35,782 bases of DNA from a candidate division WOR-1 bacterium RIFOXYB2_FULL_36_35. Lineage in GTDB: Bacteria; Margulisbacteria; WOR-1; XYC2-FULL-46-14; XYC2-FULL-37-10. The translations under genes and the position numbers were made by a program. The stretch spans positions 1 to 35,782 of the forward strand of contig MEUA01000038.1 in NCBI GenBank assembly GCA_001771505.1, in the 5' to 3' direction. This document shows, piece by piece, positions 5,225 through 35,743 of this stretch (positions within the stretch are counted from its first letter, which is position 1; each line of letters starts with the position of its first letter). A model generated the notes under the pieces. That model had not been told where the DNA came from. It worked only from the letters and a program-made list of their open reading frames with translations, and made no database searches.

Positions 5225-5268
5225 ATAATTTGCAAAGCCAAAAAATATTCCCCTTCGCAAACTGTTTG

Positions 5269-5370
5269 AATCCCGATTATTCACCCCGATTAGGAGAATC
5301 GGGGTTCACGTCAGAATCAATAATCAACAAATTGTCAAACAGTTACTCGAGGCATGAATAATTGGGGTTA
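5269..5370 (-). repeat. Palindromic repeat, subtype A, copy 1 (reverse orientation)
   Basis: A 102-bp element follows the tRNA. Its left end aatcccgattattca is complementary to the right end tgaataattggggtta (5355-5370). Next to the left end is an internal hairpin, accccgatt (5283-5291) and aatcggggt (5297-5305) around a 5-base loop. The core between hairpin and right end matches the reverse complement of the copy at 35455-35559, including caacaaattgtcaaaca. It is placed on the minus strand because subtype B copies and the other A copy have the hairpin near the right end. Confidence 0.85.
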
Positions 5371-5387
5371 AAAATCTGAAAAACCAA

Positions 5388-15786: not shown

Positions 15787-15823
15787 ACCCCGATTAGGAA
15801 ATCGGGGTGAATAATCGGGGTAA
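15787..15823. repeat. Palindromic repeat, hairpin plus right arm, before lipoprotein RBS
   Basis: Hairpin accccgatt (15787-15795) and aatcggggt (15800-15808), followed by the right arm gaataatcggggtaa (15809-15823). The left arm and core are missing. It ends three bases before AGGAGG (15826-15831), so the folded RNA would abut the ribosome-binding site of the lipoprotein gene. Confidence 0.8.
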
Positions 15824-15837
15824 ATAGGAGGATAAAA

Positions 15838-18225: not shown

Positions 18226-18328
18226 TTAACCCCGATTATTCATAGACAAACAGAATTCTAGCAGAGTGTTAGAAATTTCCCCAGGTATGAACCCCGATTT
18301 CCTAATCGGGGTGAACAATCGGGGTTAA
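18226..18328 (+). repeat. Palindromic repeat, subtype B, copy 1
   Basis: A 103-bp element. Its left arm ttaaccccgattattca is complementary to its right arm tgaacaatcggggttaa, apart from one change. An internal hairpin, accccgatt (18291-18299) and aatcggggt (18304-18312), adjoins the right arm. It aligns without gaps to the copy at 35315-35417 with eight differences counted by eye. It lies between the divergent gpmI and the membrane-protein gene. No convincing target duplication is seen beyond the TTAA ends. Confidence 0.9.
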
Positions 18329-30193: not shown

Positions 30194-33100
30194 ATGGTGG
30201 GAATAACTTACCAAAAATATACAGCGCAAAATCCAAGGAATGAAAGCGCCAGATTTTCCTTTCATTTTTATTCCCAGAGGATTTCAAGTTTTATGAGAGT
30301 GTTTGAAAACATTCTTATGCCAAAGCTATATAAGCAATTACAGGATAATCCTGGAAGTTTTGATTGCGACAATTTATCCAGGCTTGTAAGACAGTTAAAT
30401 ATCTTAACGGAGTTACAGGAACTAACACTGGACAACATATCCGCACTTGACCTTAGAGATACTTTTTGTTCTCCGTCAAATCAGGAATCCACGCCAACCG
30501 AAGAAGCCATGTTTAGAATAAAATATCTTGCATCAAAATTAGGGCATAGCATAAAACGTCATGGAGATTATCGCACAAGCGAACCTATGGGCCTTAGCTT
30601 CGCATATGATAATCAGGATTATCTGGTTTTAGGGACCAGAAACGAAGTAGAAGAAGGGATAAAAGCTGGGACATTACGCTATCAAAGATTGGGGCGACCA
30701 TTATTTTATCTAGAACTTTCCACCCCGCAAACAGTTACATCTCCCACAGACAGCCTTAAAACAAGCAATGCTCTATTAATATTAAAAACTGATGATTCAG
30801 AAACGACTCTATCCAAAGTAAGGATAAAAGCACGAAGAATGATTATGCCATCCAGATTTCATTTTGTCCCGCCGCACACGCTGGAAAAAAGAATTAAGGC
30901 TTTGATTTTAGATGGTGAATATTCTTCTGCAGCGCTCTTAATTTTCGGAGCTTTTTCTAATTTTAGAAAATCTGAAGAATTAATCGACTCCCTACATATA
31001 AAGTTTTTAAAAGGATACCTTTGTGAAACAAGCGAGCCAAATTGCGTGGCAAAATACCTTTGCTGGGTTGCAAAACAAAGAGGAGCTAAAGAAGCATTGG
31101 AAATTATCAGAGGAACATCCCTTGCGACAGATAGCAAAGAAGTTTTATGCGGCGGATTTTCTGATCCCAAAAAAGCAGGAGTAATCCTTTTTAAAATAGC
31201 CCTTATGCAACCTAAGCTGGCAAACAAACTGTGCGAAGACGCAATGCAGGAAATAAATCCCGGCATAATTAAAAATGCTCTTGATTTCTTGCATAACTCC
31301 CGCCCCTCTTTATTTAAAAGCTCGGTAGAATATCAGGAAGATCCACGCTCAATATTTAAAAACAGGGGGAGGCTTTTGGGCCCAACTATCCCGGTTAAAA
31401 AAAGAGGTTTATCCATATCCGCAGATACGATAGACACCATTTTTTCTAATCCGGCAAATCATGTGGCTTCCGTCTCAAATCCAGAAAAACATGAACCCCG
31501 ATTTCCCAATCGTGGTGAAATAGAACTTTATCGTGAAAGGGGATGGGAAACAGAATATGCCATTTTGGAAAAAGCAGATGTTACTAAGGCATTAGTGCAA
31601 GATTTAACAGTAAAAGGAGATTATGAGTCCGCCTGCGGGCTTTTATTTGAAGAAGAAAGATCTATCGAAGAGATAGCGGAAATCTTAAACATTCAGGCTC
31701 TCCTCCCTGCCCAGATTATGGGAATTTTAGGGTGTCTGCCTAAGGAAAGCTTACAAAAGTTATTGGCTGTTGCAATTGAATATGGGAAAGGAAAATTATT
31801 ACACGGAGAATTACGAGATCCTTTCCTTCTAGGTTTGCTATTTGCCTTGGCAAAACTTGATACAACAAGTTTATCTTCTCTTCTTAATGAAATGATCCAA
31901 CACGAGGATCCCCAATCTCTTGGTGTGTACCCTCAAAGAGAGGCCGCCTACATCATCTTACAGGAAGGGATGGATCCTTTAAAAGAGAGTCACACAAGAT
32001 ACCTTTCAGCATTGGAACAGTTATGTTCAATGCGTGAAGAATATGCTACGCCAATAGATTTTATCCTTTATCAGCAACTACTGCCGGATGATAAAAAACC
32101 GGCTACCCCTTACGCTCAGGCCGATTTTTATTTAAGGTTAATTCAGGCAGAAGATCAGCCGCAAGTTATAAGGTTGCAAGCTACGGTTAGATTAGTACAA
32201 TTAGGAAAGATAAAAGGTGATATTGAAAAAATATTACCCAGAAAAGAGTTTGTCCTCCTCTTAAGAGAAGTAATTTCAGCAAAACATCCTCTCATAAGTT
32301 ACCACAATTTAGAAGCTCTAATGAGTAGCATAGATTATGACTGCGGAGAAGAATTAGCTATACAATTAAAAGCAATCCAAAATACAGACATACAACTCAA
32401 GCGCTTCGCCGAGTATCTGCGCTTTATCAATATAGGGATAAGATTAATGCGCTCCACATCAAATGAGGAGAAAGAAGAGGGATTGTCAATGCTTCTGCAA
32501 CTAAGAGACAAGCGGCAGGCCAATCTTTTTGTCTCTGATCAAGGCTTACATACACACAAGAGTGAAAAAATCCGCGAGGCATTCGCATCCGCAATTCCAT
32601 CCCTTTATGGTAAAGAGACCGCTACAAAGTTATTGGAGGAGATGCGCAAAGACAAAAGTGACAAGGTAAAAACAGCAAGAAATTTTGCAATAATACAGCT
32701 TCTCAAAAAGAGTAAAGAGAGAGCCAAATTAAGAAGGCTTGTCGACTCTCCCGATAAAGATATAAGTTCTGCTGCGGGGGAGGCGTTGTTTGATATATAT
32801 CAAGAAGAAGAGAGCAGGCCAGGACTAACAGATTTGGCAACAGCACAAAATCTTTCTGATGCGCTGCGAATAAAATCGGGGGGGAGATTATGTGCTATAG
32901 ATCTTGAGACTCAAGCCTTCTCCTCACTTGAAGAGATGGAAGTAGACAGATTTATGCCTGAATCTCTCAGAAAAAATCTTGCACTATTCAACAAGTTAAG
33001 AAAAGAATTTTTACATCTTACGCAAGAAACATCACAAACAGAAATCGACGCTGTTATAGATGAAGTTGTAGATTTAATAATTGCAGAGAAAAGGGAGCAA

Positions 33101-34108
33101 GGGGATCATAAAAAACTTTTTCAAATAATAAAAGAGTACGACTTCTCGCCAAAAATCAACCAAAAGATTGCAGTTGCCTGGCGAGAAATACTTTGTGAAA
33201 AAAATGCAGCCGAAGCAAAAAAAACATTAGAGCAGGCTGCTCCACAATGGCCAAGCAACAACAACATTCCAGAATGCATTAGACAAGAAGCCCAAAGATA
33301 TATAAAAACGCTCAAAAGATCAGCACAGATTGAAACGCAAGGGGAAAGAGATTCTACTCCATACAAAGAAAAGCTTATCGCAATTTCAGATCCAGAATTT
33401 ACAAACTTCATGATTGAGTTACATGCTGCAGAAGAGATTTCTAGCATATCAAACTTAGAAAATTTAGCGAAAAAAACCAGAGAGCATCCTGAATGGGAAA
33501 ACAGAGTAAGGATGGCGCAAGTGAAAATAGCTATTGAAAAAAAAGATATTGCCGAATTAATAAGGCTTGCCTCCTTTAAAAGACCCGATTTTGATCTTCC
33601 GCAATTTAGACCCGCATATCTAACCGCAGCGGAAAATGGAGCTATAGACTTAATTAGGCAATCTGAAGATGAAGAAGAGCTGCTTATTCTGCGAGATACA
33701 CCGGTTTTGTACAAACCAGATAGTATCACCCAGGAAATAAACCAAAGCCTTGCTGAAATAGCCGTTAAAAAAAGCGAGAAAAGCAAGCTAATTAAGTCCA
33801 TTGTCATCCCTTATCCTGAAATGTCAGAGAGAACAAGAGAACATATAGCAAAAGCGCTAATATCTATTTATGAAGAAGAAGAAAACATCCCTGAACTAAC
33901 AACAATATCCTTTTCTACCCTCTTTAATCAAGGAATAAGAGATAAAGCCCTTGATGCTATTGAAAGGGTATTGATTATGCAGCGCGAAGTTATAAAATTA
34001 AGAGATATGTCAATGGTTAAAGGTAGAAGACAAGAAAGTGTCAAGCAAGCATATCAAAAAGCTATTGAGCTTCTTCGAAAAGATTTTGTAACAACGGAGC
34101 AATCATGA
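30194..34108 (+). CDS. Very large alpha-helical (solenoid-like) protein, unknown function
   Basis: A 1304-residue protein with no signal peptide, membrane segment or recognised catalytic domain. It is mostly amphipathic helices in repeated pairs, for example KALILDGEYSSAALLIFGAF, LRLIQAEDQPQVIRLQATVR, ATKLLEEMRKDKSDKVKTAR and LRRLVDSPDKDISSAAGEAL, consistent with HEAT/TPR-like scaffolds. A beta-containing section at about 105-230 (MGLSFAYDNQDYLVLGTRNE) may be a separate domain. Residues 434-442 (EPRFPNRGE) come from an in-frame copy of the palindromic repeat. The ATG at 30194 lacks a ribosome-binding site; ATG 30293 (MRVFENILM), preceded by AGAGGA at 11 bases, is an alternative. The stop overlaps the next start (ATGA), so the two genes are translationally coupled. 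Confidence 0.7.
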   Translation: MVGITYQKYTAQNPRNESARFSFHFYSQRISSFMRVFENILMPKLYKQLQDNPGSFDCDNLSRLVRQLNILTELQELTLDNISALDLRDTFCSPSNQESTPTEEAMFRIKYLASKLGHSIKRHGDYRTSEPMGLSFAYDNQDYLVLGTRNEVEEGIKAGTLRYQRLGRPLFYLELSTPQTVTSPTDSLKTSNALLILKTDDSETTLSKVRIKARRMIMPSRFHFVPPHTLEKRIKALILDGEYSSAALLIFGAFSNFRKSEELIDSLHIKFLKGYLCETSEPNCVAKYLCWVAKQRGAKEALEIIRGTSLATDSKEVLCGGFSDPKKAGVILFKIALMQPKLANKLCEDAMQEINPGIIKNALDFLHNSRPSLFKSSVEYQEDPRSIFKNRGRLLGPTIPVKKRGLSISADTIDTIFSNPANHVASVSNPEKHEPRFPNRGEIELYRERGWETEYAILEKADVTKALVQDLTVKGDYESACGLLFEEERSIEEIAEILNIQALLPAQIMGILGCLPKESLQKLLAVAIEYGKGKLLHGELRDPFLLGLLFALAKLDTTSLSSLLNEMIQHEDPQSLGVYPQREAAYIILQEGMDPLKESHTRYLSALEQLCSMREEYATPIDFILYQQLLPDDKKPATPYAQADFYLRLIQAEDQPQVIRLQATVRLVQLGKIKGDIEKILPRKEFVLLLREVISAKHPLISYHNLEALMSSIDYDCGEELAIQLKAIQNTDIQLKRFAEYLRFINIGIRLMRSTSNEEKEEGLSMLLQLRDKRQANLFVSDQGLHTHKSEKIREAFASAIPSLYGKETATKLLEEMRKDKSDKVKTARNFAIIQLLKKSKERAKLRRLVDSPDKDISSAAGEALFDIYQEEESRPGLTDLATAQNLSDALRIKSGGRLCAIDLETQAFSSLEEMEVDRFMPESLRKNLALFNKLRKEFLHLTQETSQTEIDAVIDEVVDLIIAEKREQGDHKKLFQIIKEYDFSPKINQKIAVAWREILCEKNAAEAKKTLEQAAPQWPSNNNIPECIRQEAQRYIKTLKRSAQIETQGERDSTPYKEKLIAISDPEFTNFMIELHAAEEISSISNLENLAKKTREHPEWENRVRMAQVKIAIEKKDIAELIRLASFKRPDFDLPQFRPAYLTAAENGAIDLIRQSEDEEELLILRDTPVLYKPDSITQEINQSLAEIAVKKSEKSKLIKSIVIPYPEMSERTREHIAKALISIYEEEENIPELTTISFSTLFNQGIRDKALDAIERVLIMQREVIKLRDMSMVKGRRQESVKQAYQKAIELLRKDFVTTEQS
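31495..31516. repeat. Palindromic repeat copy inside the 1304-residue gene
   Basis: accccgatt (31495-31503), loop tccc, aatcgtggt (31508-31516), flanked by atga and gaaa as in the full elements. One stem base differs (T for G). It is translated in frame as PRFPNRG and does not interrupt the gene. Confidence 0.75.
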
Positions 34109-35314: not shown

Positions 35315-35417
35315 TTAACCCCGATTATTTATAGACGAACAGAATTATATCAGAGTGTTGGAACTTTTCCCAGGTATGAACCCCGATTTCCTAATCGGGG
35401 TGAATAATCGGGGTTAA
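35315..35417 (+). repeat. Palindromic repeat, subtype B, copy 2
   Basis: A 103-bp element with arms ttaaccccgattattta and tgaataatcggggttaa and an internal hairpin accccgatt/aatcggggt next to the right arm. It is collinear with the copy at 18226-18328; substitutions concentrate in the core between the left arm and the hairpin, while both halves of the hairpin are identical. Confidence 0.9.
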
Positions 35418-35446
35418 ATTCCCTAAGATCATACTTATATAAACAA

Positions 35447-35455
35447 TGATATAAT
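35447..35455 (+). promoter_or_regulatory. Extended -10 promoter for the 54-residue gene
   Basis: TG-A-TATAAT (35447-35455) is a perfect extended -10 element lying between the two adjacent repeat elements. Transcription would start near 35462, so nearly all of the following repeat copy would form the 5' leader of the small gene. Confidence 0.45.
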
Positions 35456-35559
35456 TAACCCCGATTACTCATACCTCGAATCAATGTTTGACAATTTGTT
35501 GGTTATTGATTCTAGCGTGAACCTCGATTATGATAATCGGGGTGAATAATCGGGGTTAA
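35455..35559 (+). repeat. Palindromic repeat, subtype A, copy 2
   Basis: A 105-bp element with left arm ttaaccccgattactca, right arm tgaataatcggggttaa and inner hairpin acctcgatt (35521-35529) with aatcggggt (35535-35543). The core contains a further inverted pair, gaatcaat and attgattc. Its reverse complement aligns along the full length with 5269-5370. It begins 37 bases after the subtype B copy, in the same orientation. Confidence 0.88.
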
Positions 35560-35578
35560 TCTATCGGAGGTGAACCAA

Positions 35579-35743
35579 ATGGTTGAAGAAAAAAAGTTGT
35601 CCGCGGATAAATTTTTAAGCCAGTTAAATGACTTTGAAGAGACTGTACAGGAACTTGCAAAAAACATAGCCATACTTAAAAAAAACCTTACGGAAAAGAA
35701 AGAAAAGTACGGTCAGGATATCAGCAGTTGGCCGGGAAAATAG
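35579..35743 (+). CDS. 54-residue charged protein, probable coiled coil
   Basis: A short gene with a good ribosome-binding site: GGAGG (35566-35570), eight bases before the ATG. The protein begins MVEEKKLSADKFLSQLNDF, continues with heptad-like EETVQELAKNIAILKKNLTE, and ends KYGQDISSWPGK. The middle part should be one amphipathic helix or coiled coil, with a small structured tail containing a tryptophan. It has no signal peptide. I do not recognise the family. It follows a full repeat element directly and has a candidate promoter at 35447-35455, so it may be a single-gene unit. Confidence 0.65.
   Translation: MVEEKKLSADKFLSQLNDFEETVQELAKNIAILKKNLTEKKEKYGQDISSWPGK

Follow-up and report, generated by a model that had tools for sequence, protein, structure and literature searches.

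Introduction

Several families of short bacterial repeats can be compared with the one analyzed here, the closest being the Correia (NEMIS) elements of Neisseria, RUP of pneumococcus, the REP/REPIN sequences with RAYT, the small dispersed repeats of cyanobacteria and the palindromic elements of Rickettsia. RUP, with a length of 107 bp, makes use of TA and has a link to IS630, and the cyanobacterial small dispersed repeats were reportedly the subject of Elhai et al. in 2008. RUP is believed to be mobile, Rickettsia palindromic elements are given as 105–146 bp, and in-frame fusions to genes are recorded for some very small mobile repeats (PMC2229807).

Here we describe an element family from the candidate division WOR-1 bacterium RIFOXYB2_FULL_36_35, found in a 35,782-nucleotide stretch of DNA (contig MEUA01000038.1, assembly GCA_001771505.1; hereafter the window) in which two copies lie upstream of a 54-residue gene. 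The family resembles Correia/NEMIS elements in being ~100 bp long with terminal inverted repeats and target duplications, in its high copy number and its strong RNA fold, and in inserting beside promoters (PMC10969869, PMC2229807). It is unlike them in its ends (CCCCGATTATTCA), its 4-bp duplications (TTAA, TAAA/TTTA, TTCA/TGAA), an inner palindrome with direct repeats of its own, and having no known parent element. RUP is similar in size and non-autonomous habit, whereas the present family makes 4-bp duplications and no partner was found. REP/REPIN sequences with RAYT are likewise palindromes of 20–40 bp in high copy (PMC3733652), but in the present family 4-bp direct repeats flank the palindromes and the Y1 gene is unlinked. 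The cyanobacterial small dispersed repeats and the Rickettsia elements, set beside our family by description, are also very small mobile repeats, and the Rickettsia elements are far longer than the lone palindromes reported below.

We put at roughly 90% the probability that both elements upstream of the 54-residue gene are MITE-like, non-autonomous copies, that the one in the leader was inserted behind an existing promoter, and that the structured leader is a passive consequence of this insertion.

Anatomy of the tandem locus

The locus comprises the following features.

35315–35417, + strand: upstream element (subtype B of the preliminary description, here core-1 type), a 95-bp element with TTAA on each side
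35381–35400: inner palindrome of the upstream element
35447–35455, + strand: perfect extended −10 box TGATATAAT, with similar boxes before orthologues
35455–35559, + strand: leader element (subtype A of the preliminary description, here core-2 type), a 97-bp element (35459–35555) with TTAA on each side
35566–35572, + strand: ribosome-binding site GGAGGTG, outside the leader element
35579–35743, + strand: gene for a 54-residue coiled-coil-like protein, conserved in the class and without a curated family

The two elements are in identical orientation, separated by 37 bases, and measure 103–105 bp with their flanking TTAA. Each begins with TTAA and a left end similar to CCCCGATTATTCA, followed by a core, the inner palindrome, TGAATAATCGGGG and a second TTAA. 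The preliminary description of this DNA had reported two same-direction elements at this spacing, a perfect extended −10 between them and a strong ribosome-binding site followed by a small gene, and the coordinates listed above bear out all of these points. It had also proposed that the downstream element forms nearly the whole 5′ leader, which holds by inference if transcription starts ~7 bases past the −10; this element also folds on itself. Folding energies were −41.1 kcal/mol (z −5.1) for one element and −45.3 kcal/mol (z −7.2) for the other, and for each none of 200 shuffled sequences folded as well.

Sites like TGATATAAT occur three times in the whole window against 2.36 expected. By count the extended −10 is thus nothing unusual, and the support for it as a predicted promoter is its recurrence before some orthologues. 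Its last T is also the first T of the leader element's TTAA.

A high-copy family with marks of transposition

The 13-bp end of the elements, allowing at most one mismatch, was found at 280 sites in the 1.95-Mb genome, compared with 3 for a control read backwards. Ends occur in paired orientation as terminal inverted repeats (CCCCGATTATTCA ... TGAATAATCGGGG), and 62 distinct paired elements were compiled. Between the ends, family members have a short core and, in most instances, an inner palindrome of 20–21 bp. Pairing was searched at 30–160 bp, a range in which longer family members would be missed, and all 62 elements fell between 34 and 126 bp, too short for a transposase gene of their own, with 71–97 bp between the flanking 4-mers in 51 of them. 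A length under 500 bp and a high copy number, here 280 end sites, are both characteristic of MITEs.

Identical 4-mers flanked 43 of the 62 elements (shuffle mean 18.5, maximum 32 in 20,000 shuffles), while the next 4-mers outward were equal in none. The duplicated words were TTAA, TAAA/TTTA and TTCA/TGAA. Among elements without TTAA on either side (n = 24), 20 had direct and none had inverted repeats. The remaining 19 of the 62 lacked an exact 4-bp duplication, a pattern expected of older copies. Both elements of the tandem locus are flanked by TTAA, which is self-complementary, and a duplication there is indistinguishable from an additional inverted end. On contig 58, TAAA stands on either side of a core-1 copy that is nested within a core-2 copy; at the corresponding site, undisturbed core-2 copies (L036, L041) have TAAA just once. 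The 4-bp direct repeats and the nesting are characteristic of transposition that duplicates 4 bp of the target; since inverted ends are combined with flanking 4-bp direct repeats, we interpret these elements as MITE-like transposons.

Further members of the family, in full, shortened or palindrome-only form, lie elsewhere in the window.

5267–5371, − strand: core-2 copy, flanks TGAA/TTAA
15682–15702, no strand assigned: lone 21-bp palindrome, flanks TTCA/TCAA
15784–15824, + strand: shortened form of 33 bp (palindrome plus right end, 15788–15820), TAAA on both sides
15826–15831: AGGAGG of a lipoprotein gene (start 15838), directly after the shortened 33-bp form
18226–18328, + strand: core-1 copy, flanks TTAA/TTAA
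20660–20679, no strand assigned: lone 20-bp palindrome with one mismatch, flanks TGAC/TGAA
29384–29404, no strand assigned: lone 21-bp palindrome, flanks TGGG/TGAA, without duplication
31496–31515, no strand assigned: lone 20-bp palindrome with one mismatch, TGAA on both sides, in frame in the open reading frame 30194–34108

The layout of the leader was said to recur before the lipoprotein gene. The layout is real, and the element there is the shortened 33-bp form flanked by TAAA. This form could derive from a larger element by deletion between two CCCCGATT words, with the duplication kept.

Distribution of the family

A 25-base end with at most 3 mismatches was found at 100 sites in its own genome, and 2 of 94 other genomes gave one isolated match each. 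Exact ends numbered two in a genome of the same family (G002), and the search of 29 further members of the class found none. In G002, which belongs to another genus of that family, L135:1501–1574 is a diverged 74-bp relative with one exact end and without the inner palindrome. When the species collection was scanned for exact 21-base matches, one stray site came up on a Pseudomonadales contig and was rejected as a short tandem of another kind, and the same scan of viral contigs returned none; the own genome may have been left out of both collections. The abundance in one genome and near absence from relatives suggest a recent spread. A literature search by subject, as distinct from one by element sequence, found no such family, and we do not claim its absence from print.

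The 54-residue gene and a probable insertion behind its promoter

Of 94 other genomes examined by protein search, 24 have the 54-residue gene; these 24 are all of the same class, and protein identity is at most 67%. No curated protein family passed its cut-off against the 54-residue protein. By eye, the protein (loci L062–L085) has a conserved C-terminal KYG-D-S-WP-like motif. Genes for tRNA-Val, -Met or -Glu lie near the small gene at 23 of the 24 orthologue loci, several directly before it, and some orthologues may share the tRNA transcript.

The preliminary description had named the small gene's occurrence without the element in all relatives as an outcome that would count against its regulatory proposal, and this is the outcome observed: an element upstream of the gene was present in 0 of 24 orthologues. 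First-pass matches near L083 and L084 (1 mismatch in 9 bases) and near L082 and L083 (3 in 13) were discarded; the 13-base matches at L082 and L083 proved to be chance on inspection, and the 9-base match at L084 was dropped because the 13-base motif with at most 3 mismatches gave none there.

The promoter signal, on the other hand, recurs in part. Of the 24 orthologues, 8 have an exact TATAAT within the 60 bases before the start (random windows, 3.0%) and 9 have TGNTATAAT when one mismatch is allowed (random windows, 3.5%), the latter lying ~20 bases ahead of the start in several; the extended −10 was absent from this interval in the other 15. Excising the leader element in silico, along with one TTAA, yields TGATATAATTAATCTATCGGAGGTGAACCAAATG, which can be set beside TGCTATAATTGATTAAGAGGTGAAGTATG in G002, and a −10-to-start distance of 22 bases (17 in G002, 18 in G006, 21 in G023). 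Because this excision restores the layout of the orthologues, the leader element probably entered the DNA directly after a promoter that was already there. The empty-site argument draws on orthologues (at most 67% protein identity) and nested copies rather than on same-species alleles.

From the flanks and the orthologues, the leader copy would have gone into a TTAA overlapping the 3′ end of an extended −10 already present, at a pre-insertion site expected to read TGATATAATTAATC with no element. The −10 box would have been kept and the promoter would have survived, with ~100 bases of stem-loop now separating the start site from the ribosome-binding site. The predicted transcription start, ~7 bases past the −10, would fall within the left end of the leader element. 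The upstream copy would sit 5′ of the promoter and therefore outside the predicted transcript.

Does the leader element act on the small gene?

In the preliminary description the elements were proposed to act as RNA regulators at the small gene and the lipoprotein gene, that is, as evolved riboswitch-like or protein-binding cis-acting RNAs. The strong self-contained fold, the position between promoter and ribosome-binding site and the comparable layout at two genes would all fit such a role. Against it, the element is missing upstream of all 24 small-gene orthologues, and the stems are not compensated: covariation was 0.029 compared with 0.032 in shuffled alignments, and 1 stem pair had changed on both sides compared with 2.1 in shuffles. 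The alignment consisted of 24 core-1 copies (23 hand-picked from 30 plus one with a diverged core), a set without the core-2 type to which the leader copy belongs. Placement also appeared neutral, with many copies outside a leader position. Based on crude calls of open reading frames of at least 90 codons, 12 of the 62 elements lie in convergent, 11 in divergent and 25 in tandem intergenic positions, 7 lie within open reading frames and 7 could not be assigned; where a gene start was within 250 bases, the hairpin side faced toward it in 14 cases and away in 13. An Rfam scan of the window at gathering scores matched no cis-regulatory RNA family, the one match being a tRNA. In the predicted fold from the inferred start, the element is self-contained, without pairing to the ribosome-binding site, which is left to form structure with the start region of the gene. 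Orthologues, covariation and placement, together with the 4-bp target-site duplications, lead us to reject an RNA switch, and we regard evolved regulation of the two genes as exceedingly unlikely. A specific regulatory role is thus not supported, and a passive effect on the mRNA is possible.

Such an effect may have become useful, or at least been tolerated, if the hairpin makes the transcript more stable or serves as an RNase III cleavage site, and thereby changes expression of the small gene. This reading adds to the transposon explanation and does not exclude it. The geometry resembles that of a Correia element lying just behind the mtrCDE promoter, for which altered mRNA stability or processing by RNase III is reported (PMC10969869). 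The predicted transcript would also begin in the element and retain its 5′ hairpin, but no sign of selection was seen for the element at 35455–35559, and we rate secondary use as a possibility with rather less than even odds. The most that the leader element would do is change how stable the mRNA is or how it is processed, in line with reports on Correia elements.

Lone palindromes

Below the transposon-like elements lies an unexpected second layer. Exact copies of the palindrome CCCCGATT-N2..8-AATCGGGG number 150 genome-wide (each counted once per strand; control 0), and 27 of 50 inner-type palindromes examined, from the contigs listed first, stand alone. Identical 4-mers were present on both sides of 14 of 22 lone palindromes (shuffle mean 6.5; as high in 2 of 20,000 shuffles), and among those without TTAA on either side (n = 10) there were 5 direct repeats and 1 inverted. 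The 22 remained from 32 after a loose filter, allowing 2 mismatches, had dropped 10 as lying within a different repeat, some of them by chance; before filtering, 15 of 32 had identical 4-mers (shuffle mean 7.0, maximum 16 in 5,000). Of 33 palindromes located inside larger elements, 22 have TGAA/TGAA or TTCA/TTCA as flanks, and element forms lacking the palindrome also exist, 10 of the 62 elements being 71 bp long.

A second repeat family consists of a hairpin pair, GTCATTCCCG...CGGGAAT and GATCCCCGC...GCGGGGATGAC, and some of its copies carry the 21-bp palindrome (G000 contigs 1, 10, 12, 15 and 7) while others are without it (contigs 66, 24, 58, 34, 57 and 13). The palindrome and 4 further bases are found there at one same point, with flanks ACAA/TTAA and no duplication. 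In the window, the palindrome at 31496–31515 stands between two TGAA and adds eight in-frame codons to a 1304-codon open reading frame, and a paralogue (~31% identity) has a seven-residue gap at this site, within a poorly conserved stretch. Two paralogues of this open reading frame (30194–34108) are present in the genome.

It is possible, if on balance doubtful, that the 20–21 bp palindrome CCCCGATT-N4/5-AATCGGGG is a mobile unit in its own right. It would duplicate a 4-bp target and rank among the smallest transposing DNA. Its targets would have been TGAA/TTCA words within the ends of larger members, whose inner hairpin it would form, another repeat family and, in frame, a coding gene. The alternative is that the lone palindromes are what deletions left of larger copies.

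Search for a mobilizing enzyme

A transposase acting in trans would have moved the elements. Profile searches for a mobilizing transposase with PF01609 and PF13546 gave no match, and that with PF13701 gave a sub-threshold match only. On contig 28, a pair of ends spanning 1.6 kb was considered as a parent element and rejected after no transposase-like open reading frame was seen inside by eye. The genome holds a single Y1 (IS200-type) transposase (L133:1477–1866), with an internal stop and unrelated hairpins of its own. Together with the palindromic sequences and the many palindromes that stand alone, its presence would be in keeping with REP/BIME-type palindromes mobilized by a Y1 (RAYT-like) enzyme. 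However, no family repeat was found in the 6.5 kb around this gene, the palindromes do not flank it as in REP/RAYT systems, and the family makes 4-bp target duplications. Linkage and target duplications thus speak for rejecting Y1/RAYT mobilization, which we consider very unlikely.

Implications

At this locus a transposition event replaces the proposed RNA regulator, and the locus would offer a worked case of a MITE that landed immediately after a −10 box and left the promoter intact. If the lone 20–21 bp palindromes are truly mobile on their own, the size limit for target-duplicating mobile DNA would be very low, and the search for the enzyme would gain a simple substrate.
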